Shown: positions 51,651 to 59,878 of the stretch, in pieces | Layout of the letters: every line of letters begins with the position of its first letter | Position numbering within the stretch: position 1 is the stretch's first letter | Source: Halogeometricum sp. S3BR5-2 | Lineage (GTDB): Archaea; Halobacteriota; Halobacteria; Halobacteriales; Haloferacaceae | Direction of reading: 5' to 3' | Length of the DNA: 64,000 nt | Assembly (NCBI RefSeq): GCF_031624635.1 | Contig: NZ_JAMQOQ010000001.1 | Coordinates: 1,054,001-1,118,000, forward strand | Program-made: the position numbers and the translations under genes | Notes under the pieces: generated by a model | What the model saw: only the letters and a program-made list of their open reading frames with translations | Told to the model about the DNA's origin: nothing | The model's database searches: none

Positions 51651-53557
51651 ATCGACCCCACTCCCGCGAAGACGAGATAGCAGACGGCGACCAGCAGTCC
51701 GGAGTGCAGCAGCGCCTCGTACCGGCCCCTGCTGGCCGTGCCGGCGAACCACCCCGAGGCGAGCATCGTCGCCTGCGTCGTCACGTACAGTCGGTGGCGG
51801 TCCCGCGCGAGGTCGATGGCGTTCGGGTCGATAGCGACGCTGTCGAGGTTCGCCATCGACGACAACTGCGCGAACCCGTCGAACACGTGCGACCCCGTCG
51901 CCACCGTGATGCCGACGACCAGCAGGGCGGTCGTCCACCCGACGGCGACGTAGACGACCATTCCCGAGCGAAGGGCCTTCCGTGCGTGGTAGAGTCTCCC
52001 AATCTCGGACTGTAGCATCTCGAACACCGTTCCCGTGTCGCTGCCGGCGTCGAGGGCGCCGATGACGAGTCCGATTGTCTGTTCGGCCATCGGCGTCCCG
52101 ACGCGTTCGACGAAGCGGTCGAGGGCGGCCGTGCGGAGGTCCTCGTCGGTCCCCGCGTTCGGGGAGGTGAGACTGAGGTTGAGCGCGAGGTCGGCCACGT
52201 CGGCCGAGAGCGGTCCCAGGTCGACGTTTCCGGCGACGTGTTCGACCGCCTCCGGGAACGGGCGTCCGAGGCTGACGTGCCCGGAGATGGCGTGGACGAA
52301 GTCCTTTAATTCTCTATCTTTCGCGTCGTCGACGCGCGCCCGGCGGACGGCGACGGCGCCGACCGAGACGGCGTAGACGACGTACCCCGCGAGGACGACG
52401 CCGACGGCGTCCGCGCCGACGACGGCCGCGAGGAGGCCGGCGGCGACGCCGAACGGGACGAAGGCGAGCGTCGCACTCGCCGGGTTGGTCGTCGCCGTCG
52501 AGAGCATCCCGAGCGTCGTCGCCGGGCGGGCGTAGCCGACTCGCTGGTCGGGCGGCCGAATCGTGGCGACGAGCACGGATGCCCCCAGACCGACGACAAG
52601 GATGAACGCGCCGTTGCCGTAGACGACGAGGCCGCGGAGCGTCGTCGTCCCCGCCGGCGTCGTCACCGTCGCGGACAGGCCGGGCGTGATGACGCTCATG
52701 ACGGTCAGCGTGATGACGAACAGGGCGGGGAGGACGAGGAGGACGATGAATATCTCCGCGAGGAGTTCGAGAAAGCCCTCCGCCTGCCGCCGCGCGCGGT
52801 CCTCCCGGTGGCCGAGCATCCGACTCTCCATGCGGAGGTAGTTCCGGAGGGCGTCCGAACCCTGGTCGGCGTGCTCGCCGAACTTCAGCAGGAAGGGGGC
52901 GAGCGTGTTCTGCGCCGGGGTGTCGCGGGCGACGCGCCGGAGGCCGGCGTTGACGTTGCCGGTCATCGCGGCGGTGTTCAGCGCCTTTCGACAGGAGACG
53001 GCCGTCTCGCCGTACGCCCGCGTGTCGGCGACGCGGCGGAGCATCGCTCGCCGGCCGTCGCTCCCGGAGGCGAGGACGTGCAGGTAGCGGACGGCGCCGG
53101 GGAGCGTCCGGTCGATGTTCGACCGGCGCGCCGCGGCGGCCCACCGGAGGTACCGGCCGCCGAGAGCGACGACGGCGCGCTTAGCGACGAGACCGACCGC
53201 ACAGGCGGCGATAACGCCGATTACGACCGGCGGCAGTCGGGGGACCGGGGTCCGTCCGACCAGCGGAACGACCGCTTCCGCGAACGCGACCCACCCGTCG
53301 AGCGTCCGCCGCGGGAGGGCGAGGACGACGAGGGGGAACGGGACGGCGACGGCGAGCATCGCCAGCCACGACGCGCCGTACACCCGCGCGAGGAACAGGT
53401 CGAACCCGACGCGCAGGTCGGTCCCGCGGTAGTCGCGGCGGTGACGCTCGTGCCGAGGAGCGTCGGCGTGGCGGGCGAACAGGGCGTACAGAGTGCGGTC
53501 GAGAACCGACAGCGAGTCGTCGCGCGCGGCGGTCGACGGGGCGGCCGTCTCGGTCAC
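51647..53557 (-). CDS. Type IV pilus assembly platform protein (PilC/TadC-like)
   Basis: This 636-aa polytopic protein has two T2SF/GspF-type cytoplasmic domains. The first is about residues 150-260 (RTLPGAVRYLHVLASGSDGR...PFLLKFGEHADQGSDALRNYL). The second is about 425-535 (KDFVHAISGHVSLGRPFPEAVEH). They are separated and followed by groups of hydrophobic helices (about 65-105, 280-355, 370-410 and 545-630). It anchors the ATPase and lifts pilins out of the membrane. It overlaps the ATPase gene (ATGA), so the two are translated together. Confidence 0.92.
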   Translation of the reverse strand: MTETAAPSTAARDDSLSVLDRTLYALFARHADAPRHERHRRDYRGTDLRVGFDLFLARVYGASWLAMLAVAVPFPLVVLALPRRTLDGWVAFAEAVVPLVGRTPVPRLPPVVIGVIAACAVGLVAKRAVVALGGRYLRWAAAARRSNIDRTLPGAVRYLHVLASGSDGRRAMLRRVADTRAYGETAVSCRKALNTAAMTGNVNAGLRRVARDTPAQNTLAPFLLKFGEHADQGSDALRNYLRMESRMLGHREDRARRQAEGFLELLAEIFIVLLVLPALFVITLTVMSVITPGLSATVTTPAGTTTLRGLVVYGNGAFILVVGLGASVLVATIRPPDQRVGYARPATTLGMLSTATTNPASATLAFVPFGVAAGLLAAVVGADAVGVVLAGYVVYAVSVGAVAVRRARVDDAKDRELKDFVHAISGHVSLGRPFPEAVEHVAGNVDLGPLSADVADLALNLSLTSPNAGTDEDLRTAALDRFVERVGTPMAEQTIGLVIGALDAGSDTGTVFEMLQSEIGRLYHARKALRSGMVVYVAVGWTTALLVVGITVATGSHVFDGFAQLSSMANLDSVAIDPNAIDLARDRHRLYVTTQATMLASGWFAGTASRGRYEALLHSGLLVAVCYLVFAGVGSI

Positions 53558-55872
53558 CGGTGCGCTCCCGACGCTCCGGCCTCAGCCGCCTCGTTGGCCT
53601 CGCTCGACCCGGTCCCCTCGTCCTTTCTCTCCTCTCCGCCCTCGGCCATCCTTCGGCGGACGCGTTCGACCGTCGCCGCCTCGTCGGTCCGGAGGTCGGA
53701 GAGGAAGCCGAACACCCGGTCGAAGTCGGAGACGTTCTCGCGGACGAGGTACTCGACGTACCCCCGCTTCCGCAGGAACTCGGCCTCGACCGCTTCGACC
53801 TCCCGGTCGGTCGCGGCGGCGACGCGGTGGAACACGCGGTGCGAGAGGCGGCGGTGCTCGTCGCCGAGTCGCGGGTGGTCGTGCGCGACGGCGAACGACC
53901 CGTCGGTCTCCCGCCACAGGACGGCGTTCCAGTAGAGCGTCTGGCCGCCCTTCTCGATGGACCCCTTTCGCGCCGTCGGCGGGAGCGCGTCGTACCCCGC
54001 CTCGTCGACGAGTTCGACGACTTCGGCGACGTAGCGCTTCCCGTCGACGCGGTGCGGGAACACCACGAGGTCCAATTCGCGCAGGAGGTAGACCGGGAGG
54101 CCCTGTTCGACGACGCGGTTGACAAGCGTCTCCACGTCCTCGGCGTGGGTCGTCCCGACGACGCCGTGACCGGTGTTCAGTACCTCGGCGAACGTCTCGA
54201 ACGACGCGGGCGTGTTCACCTCGGCGATGACCTCCACGTCGGGGTTGAGGTAGTTGGCCTCGGTCATCAGGTCGGCCATCGAGACGCGCTTGAACTCCGA
54301 CTCGTGTTCGCGCGTCGTCAGCGAGATGCCCGTCTCGTGCGGGAGGCGGACCTCCCGCGCCCCCTCGTCGATGCTCACCGGGCGATGGTCGTAGGGGATA
54401 AAGGGCATGTGCGCGTTCATGAGCGTCGTCTTCCCGACGCCCGTCGGCCCGGAGAACAGGACGACGCGGCGGTGTTCGTACAGCATCCACAGCAGGGCGA
54501 CCAACTCGACGGGCAGGGCGTCGAGGCGGACCAGGTCCACCGGCGTCATCGGGTCGGCGGCCTGCTTGCGGATGGAGACGTGCGGGCCGTCCGCGGAGAT
54601 GACCGGCAGGGCGACGGCGCAGCGAATCGTCTCTTCGACCCCCTCGGGTCGGAGGTTCACCTTCGCCGAGGGGCGAGACGCGTTCAACTCCACGCCGTCG
54701 GCGGCCGCCAATTGGGTGACGACGTTGACGAAACTCGTCTCGTCCTCGAAGGCGAGGTTCGTCGGGACGCGACCGCCGCCGATAGGGGTGCCGTCGACGA
54801 CGCCGGCGCGCGGGATGACCTTCACGCGTTCGCCGACGCGGTTCGCCTCGACGTCTTCGAGGTCAGGGTCGCGGATGGGAATCGACAGGACGCCCTCTCC
54901 GACGTAGTCGCGGAGGACGTAGTAGACGAGGTCCTCCAACCGGTCCTCGGCGAACCGCCGGTCGACGGGCGGGAGGGCGAGTCCGTACTCCGAGAGCGCC
55001 GACCGGACCCGGTACTCGGTCGCCTCGACCCACGCGCGGGTGTTTCGCGCCGTCAGGCGCCGCGAGAGAAACTGACGGGCGCGTTCGCGGACGAACCCGC
55101 GTCGGTCCTCGACCACCTCGCCGGCGTTGGCCTCCCAGATCCGCTCCTTGCACTCGGCGATGAGTTCCTCGTCGCCGGGGAGGAGGTCGGGTTCGAGGAC
55201 GGCGTACTTCGTCGTGAAGCGGTCGTCGCCGAGAAGGTGGTCGCGGTGCAGCACCACGTCGACGTCGAACCCGCAGAACGGGACGGTGTAGTGACGGAGT
55301 CGCTCGCCCGCTACCCGGTCCGCGAATTCGGCGTCCGTCCGGTAACTGGTCGTCGCGGGGGCGTAGTTCTCGGTGTGGACGACGAGCGTTCCGTCCGCGC
55401 CGTCCTGACTCACGTCGACAACCTCGATGCGGTCGTCCAGCGCCAACGGGGTCATCTCACCCAGGAGGCGCAACTCGCAGAGCGCGTAGTACTCGATGCG
55501 GCGCCGGGCGGCGGGCGACACGTCGAGCAGGCGGTCGAACACGCGCCGATACTTCGGAGGCACGCCGGCCTCGGCGCGTTCGGCGGTGCCCTCGCGGGTC
55601 AGCGGTCGGCGGCGGTTGACGACCGAGAAGTGGTCGTCGACGGTCCGCAAGGCGGACTCCTCGCGCGGACCCAAACCGGGTTCGGACACCTCGTATCGAA
55701 AGCCGACGCCGTCGCCGTCGCGCACGGTGACGACGACTTCCGGGACTACCTCGTACTGCGTTCGGACGTCCGGGGCGTACCACGCGTCCCCGTCGTTCGG
55801 GGGAAGGGGCGGCGGCACGTCTCCAGCCGCCACCTCGTTCGGACTCGCGTCGTTCTCCGCTGAACCGTTCAT
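53554..55872 (-). CDS. Type IV pilus/secretion ATPase (PilB/TadA-like)
   Basis: This 772-aa ATPase of the VirB11/PilB family powers pilus assembly. A long N-terminal domain is followed by the ATPase core: Walker A FSGPTGVGKTTLMNAH (about 467-482), Asp box DEGAREVRLPHE, Walker B-like DVEVIAEVNTP and the His box VVGTTHAEDVETLVNR. The ATG at 55872 has a perfect GGAGGT a few bases upstream, and an AT-rich TATA box lies at 55930-55942. It is the first gene of a seven-gene operon ending at 48713. Confidence 0.94.
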   Translation of the reverse strand: MNGSAENDASPNEVAAGDVPPPLPPNDGDAWYAPDVRTQYEVVPEVVVTVRDGDGVGFRYEVSEPGLGPREESALRTVDDHFSVVNRRRPLTREGTAERAEAGVPPKYRRVFDRLLDVSPAARRRIEYYALCELRLLGEMTPLALDDRIEVVDVSQDGADGTLVVHTENYAPATTSYRTDAEFADRVAGERLRHYTVPFCGFDVDVVLHRDHLLGDDRFTTKYAVLEPDLLPGDEELIAECKERIWEANAGEVVEDRRGFVRERARQFLSRRLTARNTRAWVEATEYRVRSALSEYGLALPPVDRRFAEDRLEDLVYYVLRDYVGEGVLSIPIRDPDLEDVEANRVGERVKVIPRAGVVDGTPIGGGRVPTNLAFEDETSFVNVVTQLAAADGVELNASRPSAKVNLRPEGVEETIRCAVALPVISADGPHVSIRKQAADPMTPVDLVRLDALPVELVALLWMLYEHRRVVLFSGPTGVGKTTLMNAHMPFIPYDHRPVSIDEGAREVRLPHETGISLTTREHESEFKRVSMADLMTEANYLNPDVEVIAEVNTPASFETFAEVLNTGHGVVGTTHAEDVETLVNRVVEQGLPVYLLRELDLVVFPHRVDGKRYVAEVVELVDEAGYDALPPTARKGSIEKGGQTLYWNAVLWRETDGSFAVAHDHPRLGDEHRRLSHRVFHRVAAATDREVEAVEAEFLRKRGYVEYLVRENVSDFDRVFGFLSDLRTDEAATVERVRRRMAEGGEERKDEGTGSSEANEAAEAGASGAHR

Positions 55873-56116: not shown

Positions 56117-56186
56117 CCCCATGTGCGAAGTGAATTTCGGGTCGCGATGCTCGGTGGGGACACCCCGTGTGCGAGATGATTTTCCG
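56117..56186. promoter_or_regulatory. Two ORB-like motifs downstream of orc
   Basis: CCCCATGTGCGAAGTGAATTTC (56117-56138) and CCCCGTGTGCGAGATGATTTTC (56163-56184) match the motif repeated on the other side of the orc gene. The second ends 25 bases before the orc stop codon. Confidence 0.75.
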
Positions 56187-56208
56187 CGGGAGGACGCCCC
56201 GCTCTCGG

Positions 56209-57552
56209 CTACTCCTCTTCGAAGAAATCCGCGACCTGCGCGTCGACGACGGACCTGATGAGGTCCTCCTCGTGTTCGGCCGCTTCGAGCCGGATGTCGT
56301 CTTCGAGCGTCTCGGCGACGACGCTGGGGTCGTCGACGAACGTGTACTCCTTGTGGACGCCGCTGCCGTAGCCGCGGCCGCGCTTCTCCGAGACGACGAA
56401 GTTGTAGGTCTCCGCCTCGTTCATGTATCGGAGGTAGGAGTCGCGCGACTTCTCGTCGGTGTCCAGGAGGTCGGTGAGATACTGGTAGACGCGGTAGGCG
56501 ACCGTGCTGGGGACGGCGTCCAGCGTGCGCTGTGCGTGAACGGGAACGACAGCGGTCGCGTACAGCGAGAGCTTCTTCTGGGCCGACAGTCCCTGCATCT
56601 GCGTCAGCGTCCGGTCGCGCTCGGCCTCCTTCTGCGCGTCGCGCACGTCCGCCTCGCAGATGGTCCCCGTCCCCTGCCGATCCGCGATTTCGCCGGCCTT
56701 CCGGAACAGGTCGATAGCCTTGCGGGCGTCGCCGTGGTCCTGCGCGGCGAACGCCGCGCTGAGCGGGATGATGCCGTCTTCGAGCACGCCCTCCTGATAG
56801 GCGTCGCGGCGCCGTTCGAGGATGGCCTGTAGCTGGTTCGCGTCGTAATCGGAGAAGACGACGTCCTGCGGGTTGAACGAACTCTCCGCCCGTCCGTCGA
56901 GGTCCTCCATGAACCGGGGGTCGTTCGTCAGCGCGGCGACCGAGACGTGCCCCTCGATGCGGCCCAACTGCGAGGCGCGCGATAGTTGGTACAGCAGTTT
57001 CGAGTGGGCCGGCTCGTCGTTCGGGTCGCGCTGGCGGCCCACCAGCAGGTCCACCTCGTCGAGGATGATGATGACCGAGTCGAAGTTGTTCGTGAGAATC
57101 TCGTAGAAGCGGGTGAGCTTCTGGTCCGTCGAGATGCCGCTCTCGGGGACCCCCACCTCGACGCCGGCCTCGGCGGCCGCGCTCTCGACGAGTCGGTACA
57201 CCGCCCGGTCGTGCGACTTTATCGTCTGGCAGTTGACCTCGATGAACCCGAGACGGTCGCCCTGCGCGGTGGCGAGTTCGAGCACCTGCTGGCACACCGC
57301 GTTGATGATGAGCGACTTTCCGGTTCCCGAGGGTCCGTAGAGCAGCATGTTGGGCGGTCGGTTCCCCTGCAGGGCGGGTCGCAGATAGGTGATGATGTCG
57401 TCCAACTGTTCGTCGCGCCCGACGATTCGGTCCTCGTCGATGACGGTGTCGGGGTCGAGAAGGGCCTTCTCCCGGAAGACGGAGTTCTGAACGCCCTCTT
57501 GGAGGCGCCCCTTGATAGACTGGGAGAGAGACTGGTCGTCGCCGTCGGCCAT
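56209..57552 (-). CDS. Orc1/Cdc6 family replication initiator
   Basis: This 447-aa origin-binding AAA+ ATPase has an N-terminal region (DPDTVIDEDRIVGRDEQLDD), Walker A LLYGPSGTGKSLIINA (about 70-85), Walker B SVIIILDEVDLLVGRQ (about 158-173), a sensor region (VAALTNDPRFMEDLDGRAES) and a C-terminal winged-helix domain (about 345-445). It recognises origin recognition boxes and loads MCM. Both sides of the gene carry the same ORB-like repeat, which ties this initiator to the adjacent origin. A TATA-like ATATTTAC about 27 bases upstream of the ATG indicates a leaderless transcript. Confidence 0.95.
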   Translation of the reverse strand: MADGDDQSLSQSIKGRLQEGVQNSVFREKALLDPDTVIDEDRIVGRDEQLDDIITYLRPALQGNRPPNMLLYGPSGTGKSLIINAVCQQVLELATAQGDRLGFIEVNCQTIKSHDRAVYRLVESAAAEAGVEVGVPESGISTDQKLTRFYEILTNNFDSVIIILDEVDLLVGRQRDPNDEPAHSKLLYQLSRASQLGRIEGHVSVAALTNDPRFMEDLDGRAESSFNPQDVVFSDYDANQLQAILERRRDAYQEGVLEDGIIPLSAAFAAQDHGDARKAIDLFRKAGEIADRQGTGTICEADVRDAQKEAERDRTLTQMQGLSAQKKLSLYATAVVPVHAQRTLDAVPSTVAYRVYQYLTDLLDTDEKSRDSYLRYMNEAETYNFVVSEKRGRGYGSGVHKEYTFVDDPSVVAETLEDDIRLEAAEHEEDLIRSVVDAQVADFFEEE

Positions 57553-58155
57553 GTTCCGAACTGCCGCGCCGCGCGTAAATATCCACGGAAACCGTGTGCG
57601 AGATTAAATACCGATGTATCGAGTTGCAGAGAACCTGTGTGGCCGAACTAGGAAAGGACCGATGCACCGCGGACGAAATCAATCGCCGCCTCCCTCCCCC
57701 CGTTTGCGAGATGATTTTCGGTACTCGACCGGGCCCGTCCGGTCCGAACGGTGAGACGATAGCACACACCGTGTGCGAGATGAAATCGCTCCCGATACTC
57801 GCTCGGCCGCAGCAACTCGGCGCCGGTCGTCACCCCCTCACCCCGTGTGCGAAGTGAATTGCCGAGAGTCAAGCGGGGGGCCGGTCCGCTTCGTCGTGCT
57901 TCGAGCGGCAAAGCGCGTAGTATCAGAAGAGATAGTACCAAACCGCTCGATTACAGCTACATTACGGGTTCTGTTATCAAAGCATATAGATAAAAGTGCC
58001 TATCTTCAACAACTCCCGTCGCGCGGTTTTGGCCCGTCCGACGTCGTCCTGTCGACTCGATTCTGACGATCAGGGCCGCCTGTACCCGCGGCTGTCTCCC
58101 CCGGCCCCTCCGTCCCCGATTTCATCTCGCACACGGGGTGGGGGAGGTGGGGGTT
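57553..58155. other. Replication origin with ORB-like repeats and AT-rich unwinding element
   Basis: Four motifs of the form C-tract + CCGT(G/T)TGCGA(G/A)(A/G)TGAATTTT lie in one orientation at about 57592-57610, 57698-57721, 57767-57789 and 57841-57864. A fifth is inverted at 58117-58138 (TTTCATCTCGCACACGGGGT) and continues into a long G-run. Between 57900 and 58015 lies an AT-rich stretch (rich in ATTA, TTATCAAAG and ATAGATAAAAG), the candidate duplex-unwinding element. Inverted ORBs flanking an AT-rich core next to orc is the canonical haloarchaeal origin design. The interval contains no other gene. Confidence 0.88.
58132..58153 (+). repeat. G-rich tract at the right ORB (possible G-quadruplex)
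   Basis: GGGGTGGGGGAGGTGGGGG contains four G-runs (4, 5, 2 and 5) directly after the inverted ORB. The G-string of haloarchaeal ORBs contributes to Orc binding. Four runs could also fold into a two-tier quadruplex, given that one run is only GG. Confidence 0.5.
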
Positions 58156-58279: not shown

Positions 58280-59878
58280 ATGGCTCCATCCCCCCGCGAA
58301 GAGCCGACGCTGTCGCCCCCCGTTCCGCCGGAGTCCGACGACGCGTGCGTCCTCTGGCACCGGCGCAACCTCCGCCTCACGGACGACCGAGCGGTCGAGT
58401 ACGCGACGGCGAACTACGACACCGTCTGTCCGTTATTCATTTTCGACCCGCGGTTCTACGGGGCGGACGGCCTCGCCTGCGACGCCCGGTTACGATTCCT
58501 CCACGAGTGTCTGGCCGACCTCGAAGACCAGTACACGAAGGAAGGAACGACCCTCGTCTACGCGCACGGGTCGCCGGTCGACGTCCTCGATTCGTTCCTC
58601 GACGCGGGGTGGGACGCCGTCGTCAATCGGGAGGCGACGGGGCGGTACGGGAAGGAGCGAGACGACGCGCTGGCCGCCCGCGACGGCGTGCGGTTCGTCG
58701 CCGACGACGGTATCCGGTACGGGCAGTCCGACCGGGAGGGGTGGGCCGAGCACGCGGAGTCGTACTTCGAGAGCGACCCCAATCGCCCACACGAGTCGGG
58801 GTTCGGGAGGCACGACCTCCCGTCGACAGTCGATATCGACGCCATCGAAGGCGAGTACGACGTTTCGCCGTCGAAGACGGACGTGCCGACGGGCGGCCGC
58901 ACGGCGGCGCTCGCCCGTCTCGACAGATTCCTCGACGTCGTCCACGAGTACCAAGCGAACGTCAGCAGTCCGCTGGGAGCGGCGACGCGCGCCAGTCGGC
59001 TGTCGGCGCACCTCCGCTTCGGTGCCCTCTCGGTGCGCGAGGTGTACCAGGCGCTCGACGACGCCATCGACTCCAACGGCAAGGAGGCGTTCGTCTCCAG
59101 ACTGTTCTGGAACCGCCACTACACGCAGAAGCTGGCCGACTGGTCGGGATGGATGGACACGGCGGTCAACCCGGTGCTCGAAGGCATCTACGCCGACAAT
59201 GGTGACGAGGAGCTGATCCGCGCGTGGAAACGCGGGCGGACCGGCTTCCCGATGGTCGACGCGTCGATGCGCTGTCTCCGGGAAACCGGCTGGCTCAACT
59301 TCCGGATGCGGGCGATGTGCGCGTCGGTGTTCAGCTTCGTCCTCAAACAACCCTGGCAAGTCGGCGCCGATTACATGTACTATCACCTCATCGACGCCGA
59401 CCCCGCCATCAACTACACGCAGTGGCAGAGCCAGAGCGGACTGAAGGGAATCGGTGCGATTCGCGTGTACAACCCCCGAAAGCAGGTCCGGGACAACGAC
59501 CCCGAGGGCGACTTCGTCAAGCGCTGGGTGCCCGAACTCGACCCCGTCCCCGCGAAGTACCTGGACCGCCCGGAGCGGATGCCGCTGTCGCTGCAGGACG
59601 AACTCGGCGTCGACGTCGGCGAGGACTATCCGTATCCGGTGGTCGACTACGACCGCGAGCGACGGGCGGCGCTGGACACCTTCGCCGGCCTCCGTGCGGA
59701 GTCCGAGGCGGCGATGCGAGAACCCGACGTATTCCGTCGGGCGTCGTTGTCGCCGAAGAGTCGGAACATCGTCGAGCAGGCGACGACCCGATCGGACGGG
59801 GCGGGGACACAGTCCGCCGAGTCAGCGGGCTCCGACTCCGAGTCCGCGAACGAACAGGCGGGACTCGACCAGTTCTAA
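58280..59878 (+). CDS. phr: Deoxyribodipyrimidine photolyase/cryptochrome family
   Basis: This light-driven repair enzyme for UV-induced pyrimidine dimers binds FAD and an antenna cofactor. The 532-aa product has an alpha/beta antenna domain (ACVLWHRRNLRLTDDRAVEY and on) and the FAD/catalytic domain with the hallmark RTGFPMVDASMRCLRETGWL, then RMRAMCASVFSF and NYTQWQSQSGLKG. The ATG at 58280 is used; the TTG at 58268 is possible. The C-terminal 45 residues are Ser/Glu-rich. It reads away from the origin. Confidence 0.93.
   Translation: MAPSPREEPTLSPPVPPESDDACVLWHRRNLRLTDDRAVEYATANYDTVCPLFIFDPRFYGADGLACDARLRFLHECLADLEDQYTKEGTTLVYAHGSPVDVLDSFLDAGWDAVVNREATGRYGKERDDALAARDGVRFVADDGIRYGQSDREGWAEHAESYFESDPNRPHESGFGRHDLPSTVDIDAIEGEYDVSPSKTDVPTGGRTAALARLDRFLDVVHEYQANVSSPLGAATRASRLSAHLRFGALSVREVYQALDDAIDSNGKEAFVSRLFWNRHYTQKLADWSGWMDTAVNPVLEGIYADNGDEELIRAWKRGRTGFPMVDASMRCLRETGWLNFRMRAMCASVFSFVLKQPWQVGADYMYYHLIDADPAINYTQWQSQSGLKGIGAIRVYNPRKQVRDNDPEGDFVKRWVPELDPVPAKYLDRPERMPLSLQDELGVDVGEDYPYPVVDYDRERRAALDTFAGLRAESEAAMREPDVFRRASLSPKSRNIVEQATTRSDGAGTQSAESAGSDSESANEQAGLDQF

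Follow-up and report, generated by a model that had tools for sequence, protein, structure and literature searches.

The window analysed here, a stretch of 64,000 nucleotides from Halogeometricum sp. S3BR5-2, contains an apparently intact orc1/cdc6 initiator gene (56209–57552, minus strand) encoding 447 amino acids. The product combines an AAA+ domain, in which Walker A (GPSGTGKS) and Walker B (ILDEVD) are recognizable, with a winged helix. It scores 378 bits against TIGR02928 (cut-off 181), and the Pfam models for the Cdc6 lid (PF22703) and the C-terminal winged helix (PF09079) both exceed their own cut-offs. A TATA-like element, ATATTTA (57576–57582, minus strand), is centred at about −27 from the ATG of orc and aligns with a TATA element in relatives; this distance from the start codon is the usual haloarchaeal promoter spacing. 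Downstream of orc lies the gene for a type II/IV secretion (pilus) ATPase (53554–55872, minus strand; PF00437), the first of a pilus-like operon, and on the other side a gene of the DNA photolyase/cryptochrome family (58280–59878, plus strand; PF03441, PF00875). Between these neighbours, which are not part of it, the module of orc and its ORB motifs stands alone.

An earlier note on this DNA had listed seven ORB-like motifs around orc. All seven are real; the positions listed there are accurate to within 2 bases, and the orientations are correct. The sequence CCCCGTGTGCGAGATGAATTT, with at most three mismatches, matches six of them (56117+, 56163+, 57698+, 57767+, 57841+, and 58118−), the chance expectation from 100 dinucleotide shuffles being 0; the seventh is located at 57590–57610+. 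The profile, 21 bp long and built from 129 distinct ORBs of relatives with the window excluded, was run over 1.63 Mb of the same genome, i.e., contig C1, which carries the window, and most of contig C5. The seven window ORBs are exactly its top seven sites (23.5–36.6 bits), and the best site elsewhere in the 1.63 Mb reaches 16.7 bits. An ORB-like site of 22.0 bits on another contig of this genome (G000:C6:84051; L043) is far from any orc and is possibly an orphan ORB.

Five of the ORBs precede orc. Four are direct, with cores at −54, −162, −231, and −305 from the start codon, all on the plus strand: U1, the promoter-proximal copy (57590–57610; 31.4 bits), U2, the weakest copy, which reads GTTTGCGA (57698–57718; 23.5 bits), U3 (57767–57787; 36.1 bits), and U4 (57841–57861; 35.2 bits). 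The fifth, U5 (58118–58138, minus strand; 36.6 bits), is inverted, with its core at −582, and is the highest-scoring site in the 1.63 Mb. U4 and U5, each with the G-string pointing outward, would delimit the presumed unwinding region on its left and the origin on its right, respectively. The two remaining copies lie beyond the orc stop codon, with cores at +30 and +76: D1 just past it (56163–56183, plus strand; 33.9 bits) and D2 46 bp from D1 (56117–56137, plus strand; 32.4 bits). The ORBs directly adjoin orc, and most copies carry the CCCC prefix that constitutes the G-string. The AT-richer stretch bracketed by 57841+ and 58118− is the presumed duplex unwinding element (57920–58015), assigned by AT composition. 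The AT-rich core that the earlier note placed before the inverted copy exists but is modest: its best 60 bp (about 57950–58009) are 67% AT, and the 250 bp that separate the inner ORBs are 42% AT overall, versus 34% for orc. In most relatives this interval is longer, about 305–320 bp.

A genome scan for relatives of the window Orc found 64, and the closest 32 (77–90% protein identity) without exception (32/32) carry the ORB word of the window module both upstream and downstream of orc. Adding the window locus and two plasmid copies gave the 35 loci that we tabulated. The relatives share a common order: first an inverted ORB, then an AT-richer stretch followed by direct ORBs, the last of them at about −55, then orc, and further direct ORBs beyond the stop codon. 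The latter are present in 35/35 loci, with one to seven copies each (most commonly five), oriented like the direct ORBs upstream and mostly spaced 38–46 bp, or about twice that, apart. The earlier remark that ORBs beyond orc are less usual thus does not hold for this family. In all four relatives whose complete genomes were searched, 17-mers of the ORB (with no more than one mismatch) are confined to the orc locus. As 32 orthologues and the plasmid copies retain both the layout and the ORB sequence, a cognate ori-orc pair, as proposed earlier, is strongly supported; its firing is a prediction. This locus is very probably a DNA replication origin of a plasmid-type family, and the module is very probably replication-competent.

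The module could instead be what is left of an integrated plasmid, in decay and no longer functional, given its few downstream ORBs, one weak upstream copy (57698), a shortened central interval, and the position of the window Orc on a lone branch (length 0.12) in the Orc tree. We consider such decay improbable: orc has an uninterrupted reading frame with every motif preserved, its promoter retains both the ORB and the TATA box, and all but one of the seven ORBs have scores similar to or above the median of the relatives.

The sister Orc families, about 44–56% identical to the window Orc, use other ORB words (e.g., CCCCGTCATCGATGTG and CCCCTATCGATTTGTT), and most of the loci examined again carry their own word on both sides of orc. 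The same test identified exceptions: L083 has no downstream copies, and two Haladaptatus loci (L077 and L094) have downstream copies only. As they occur throughout the family and at most sister loci, downstream ORBs are a usual feature of this portion of the Orc tree. The genome of S3BR5-2 itself contains 16 orc1/cdc6-like matches, including a 55% identical paralogue on contig C10, which is likewise flanked on both sides by an ORB word of its own. A further variant, L154 (G013:C2, about 175–177 kb), encodes a 70% identical Orc; its ORBs have the same word mostly in the opposite orientation, the upstream ones in runs spaced about 45–65 bp.

The replicon that carries the module is the main chromosome. 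Contig C1 is 1.23 Mb long and has 13 tRNA genes, and in three congeners (G002, G003, and G004) the pilus ATPase gene shares one contig with oriC1, about 590–675 kb away. In S3BR5-2, oriC1 is on a different contig (C5), and its distance from the window would have to be read from synteny only. Most copies of the family are carried by plasmids. Matches occur in 415 plasmid records, with at least 60% identity in 33, and among the matches listed 32 are 78–90% identical; chromosomal copies also exist, for example in Halosimplex aquaticum. The window module is a member of a patchily distributed ori-orc family, mostly plasmid-carried with some chromosomal copies. The Orc tree intermixes Haloarculaceae, Haloferacaceae, and Natrialbaceae and has few well-supported forks; such mixing of taxa is as expected of a mobile module.

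Several individual copies deserve mention. At plasmid loci L283, L295, and L296, a type B DNA polymerase gene lies directly upstream of the origin, and in the Halorarius copy a transposase gene is found inside the downstream ORB cluster (2 + 4 ORBs). A 200,553-bp replicon carries a second copy of the module (L273; G073:C3, about 31–32.5 kb), in which the orc frame is broken in two; Haloarcula litorea plasmid NZ_CP119781.1 has the same length as this replicon. A 77% identical Orc is encoded on a 959-kb scaffold of a nanohaloarchaeal metagenome-assembled genome, Candidatus Nanosalinarum sp. J07AB56 (L079), accompanied by at least one upstream ORB and a weak downstream one. This copy possibly represents a transfer between haloarchaea and Nanohaloarchaea, or else mis-binning.

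The earlier note also pointed out that the far-side ORBs flank the pilus operon, but no special tie is apparent: the downstream ORBs of most relatives have unrelated neighbours. When the pilus and photolyase proteins were sought by tblastn, no match was found at any relative's origin locus; at the Haloarcula hispanica locus, a pilin-like gene is nearby and the next gene has no Pfam match. The pilus operon is thus an incidental neighbour, relatives carrying other genes in its place, and in view of the tblastn result we rejected it as a part of the system. As neighbouring genes vary between loci while the ORBs persist, the ORBs belong to orc. One might still suppose that the downstream ORBs serve as operators through which Orc controls the pilus operon, since these ORBs separate orc from the first gene of the operon, both genes being read in the same direction, and since the congener G004 retains two degenerate ORBs upstream of the same operon. 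In our opinion this is very improbable: in addition to the unrelated genes that adjoin the downstream ORBs of most relatives, two congeners possess the pilus ATPase with no ORB-like site within 18 kb, and the G004 sites are weaker than their window counterparts (24.9 and 19.8 versus 33.9 and 32.4 bits).

The G004 sites are better understood as a footprint of loss. A search of four congeners for an Orc of the window family returned no orthologue, the best match in G004 being 54% identical. In that genome the pilus operon is shared (92% DNA identity), the photolyase gene is truncated, and other genes replace orc and the origin. The two degenerate sites (L146 positions 3865 and 3910; G004:C1, about 775.9 kb) occupy the aligned place of the downstream ORBs, orphaned from orc. 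In the simplest reading of this alignment, G004 would have lost the origin with its initiator, leaving decaying orphan ORBs, which suggests that the module has been at its present place for some time.

GC skew is a poor guide to origins in haloarchaea, and here it is consistent with an origin only locally. The skew switch that the earlier note expected near 57.9 kb is present as a local cumulative maximum at 57656, with the same sign as the switch at oriC1. It ranks among the top 1.4% of positions at the 20-kb scale and the top 1.8% at 40 kb (neighbouring positions being non-independent), but disappears at 80–120 kb. G004 shows a similar local jump at its pilus operon without the origin, and the window maximum may only reflect gene orientation. 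As the signal is lost at the longer scales and a similar jump occurs in the origin-less congener, the skew is non-diagnostic, and we rejected it as proof of an origin. For comparison, oriC1 (G000:C5, about 269.5–270.1 kb), where classic TTCCAGTGGAAAC-type ORBs lie next to an orc gene whose open frame spans 627 aa, has the sharpest plus-to-minus switch of C1 and C5 at every scale tested; this switch is a cumulative maximum, not a minimum.

The absence of a long-range skew signature, the affiliation with a plasmid-type family, the patchy distribution, and the loss in a congener would all fit an origin that is intact but dormant, i.e., competent on a plasmid and silent on the chromosome while oriC1 and others fire. 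Recently acquired haloarchaeal origins can indeed be dormant (PMC4595724). We regard dormancy as a serious possibility, falling somewhat short of probable. All elements and orc are intact, the G004 relic suggests a stay of some time, and the value of skew in these organisms is limited. Moreover, the dormant oriC4-cdc6H of Haloferax mediterranei probably belongs to a different family: among 15 Haloferax genomes searched, the window Orc family is absent from all except H. elongans, and we therefore judged identity between the two origins unlikely.

Guidance on activity comes from H. hispanica. The genome that we take to be that of this species (G069) has one match to the window Orc at E ≤ 1e−60, located on a contig of 488,918 bp. 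The orthologue, HISP_RS17180, is full length and 88.8–89% identical, and is also found on pHH126 of strain N601. The H. hispanica minichromosome is 489 kb long and in N61 is split into a 363-kb replicon and the 126-kb pHH126; of its four cdc6 genes, Cdc6G lacks the 5′ end and promoter, and Cdc6H lacks the winged helix (PMC4441112). With G and H defective and the orthologue intact, the latter must, by exclusion, be Cdc6I or Cdc6J. Under the published family rule of at least 80% Orc identity together with the same ORB word (PMC3528665), the window module falls in the oriC6/oriC7 type, the shared word being found in the ORBs of L270/L282. ARS activity was found for both oriC6-cdc6I and oriC7-cdc6J, in each case requiring the cognate cdc6, and one of these two origins is essential; marker frequency did not resolve whether the origin of the orthologue fires on the minichromosome (PMC3936714). 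From oriC6 or oriC7 we infer origin activity of the window module.

Far-side ORBs and a model for their action have already been published for H. hispanica oriC2 (PMC3936714). There, 11 ORBs downstream of cdc6E, within 722 bp, form oriC2D, which has no ARS activity alone and whose single deletion was unobtainable. It lowers the copy number of oriC2 plasmids, an origin without it replicates more, and a construct with two downstream ORBs shows an intermediate effect; the authors propose titration of Cdc6E and point to comparable arrangements elsewhere (PMC3936714). For many genes, ORBs have also been listed in the intergenic regions on either side (PMC3528665). The window shares the defining feature, a cluster of same-word ORBs directly downstream of orc (56117 and 56163), as do all 35 loci. 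Orthology with cdc6E itself was rejected: the only match in H. hispanica at E ≤ 1e−60 is the intact orthologue on the minichromosome-sized contig, not on the main chromosome. Since the window Orc is not Cdc6E, the oriC2D parallel is an analogy of mechanism, not of membership. By this analogy, the downstream ORBs of the window likely soak up Orc and restrain firing. With only two copies, near the bottom of the family range, titration would be weak.

Alternatively, the downstream ORBs might be part of the origin proper, acting as a second loading platform in place of a titration sink. Their presence in every one of the 35 loci, their fixed orientation, and their prevailing spacing of 38–46 bp would suit a cooperative filament. 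However, the inactivity of oriC2D as an ARS and the increased replication in its absence (PMC3936714) speak against a loading function, as does the fact that most loci have no inverted ORB partner downstream, and we consider such a platform unlikely.

In nearly all of the 35 loci, one ORB, at about −55, is immediately adjacent to the TATA box of orc. In the window, the CC of U1 is at 57592 and the ORB, 9 bp from the TATA-like element, lies over the expected BRE. To judge from this anatomy, Orc bound at the promoter ORB should hinder TFB/TBP, and the conservation of the site suggests autoregulation of orc. The earlier proposal of autoregulation is accordingly plausible in outcome, but it would operate through the upstream ORB at 57590 and not through the far-side copies to which it had been attributed.

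Taken together, we think it likely that the locus represents a self-contained replicator-initiator unit from a plasmid/minichromosome family, residing on the main chromosome, initiating upstream, titrating downstream, and probably autorepressed. In the proposed mechanism, the window Orc would bind its own private ORB word. Orc assembled on the five upstream ORBs, including the inverted one beyond the AT-richer stretch, would open the origin and recruit MCM. The two ORBs beyond the stop codon would not initiate, and Orc bound there would be less free to fire the origin. Finally, Orc at the ORB beside the TATA box would probably repress its own gene. A broader and only tentative proposal is that every initiator gene of this Orc clade is enclosed by its own binding sites (autorepression ORB, origin, and sink), and that replicon copy number or firing rate can be tuned in evolution through the number of sink ORBs, which ranges from one to seven. 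If so, sink sizes would differ between plasmid and chromosomal copies, chromosomal residence selecting for a changed sink. On a more general note, the main chromosome of a haloarchaeon can harbour a plasmid-type origin in the form of just a 2-kb ori-orc module, of which the far-side ORBs are a fixed part and no oddity. The one to seven downstream ORBs of the family, the promoter ORB, and the orphan ORBs of the congener offer ready-made variants for tests of archaeal titration and autoregulation.

Among known systems, the closest to the window module is the HISP_RS17180 locus, which has the same ORB word, a promoter ORB beside the TATA box, and ORBs at almost the same positions (−702, inverted; −357, −248, −164, and −55; plus the downstream copies). 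It differs in residing on an unstable secondary replicon and in having five downstream ORBs, whereas the window module is on the main chromosome and has two; the central interval is also shorter in the window. The oriC2-cdc6E locus with oriC2D resembles it in general plan, i.e., an origin upstream of the initiator gene and an ORB cluster directly downstream, but the window Orc is of another family and two downstream ORBs stand against 11. Negative control by initiator titration is experimentally supported for oriC2D, while for the window it is proposed by analogy. H. mediterranei oriC4-cdc6H (PMC4595724) is similarly a chromosomal origin of patchy distribution, paired with an orc of its own and located in a variable region; it is dormant and, judging from the genus search, probably has an Orc of another family. 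Finally, as in the comparison drawn for oriC2D (PMC3936714), the predicted combination of initiator titration and autoregulation of the initiator gene parallels Escherichia coli datA and the dnaA promoter controlled by DnaA boxes; unlike in E. coli, the archaeal initiator is unrelated to DnaA and the titration sites adjoin the initiator gene.
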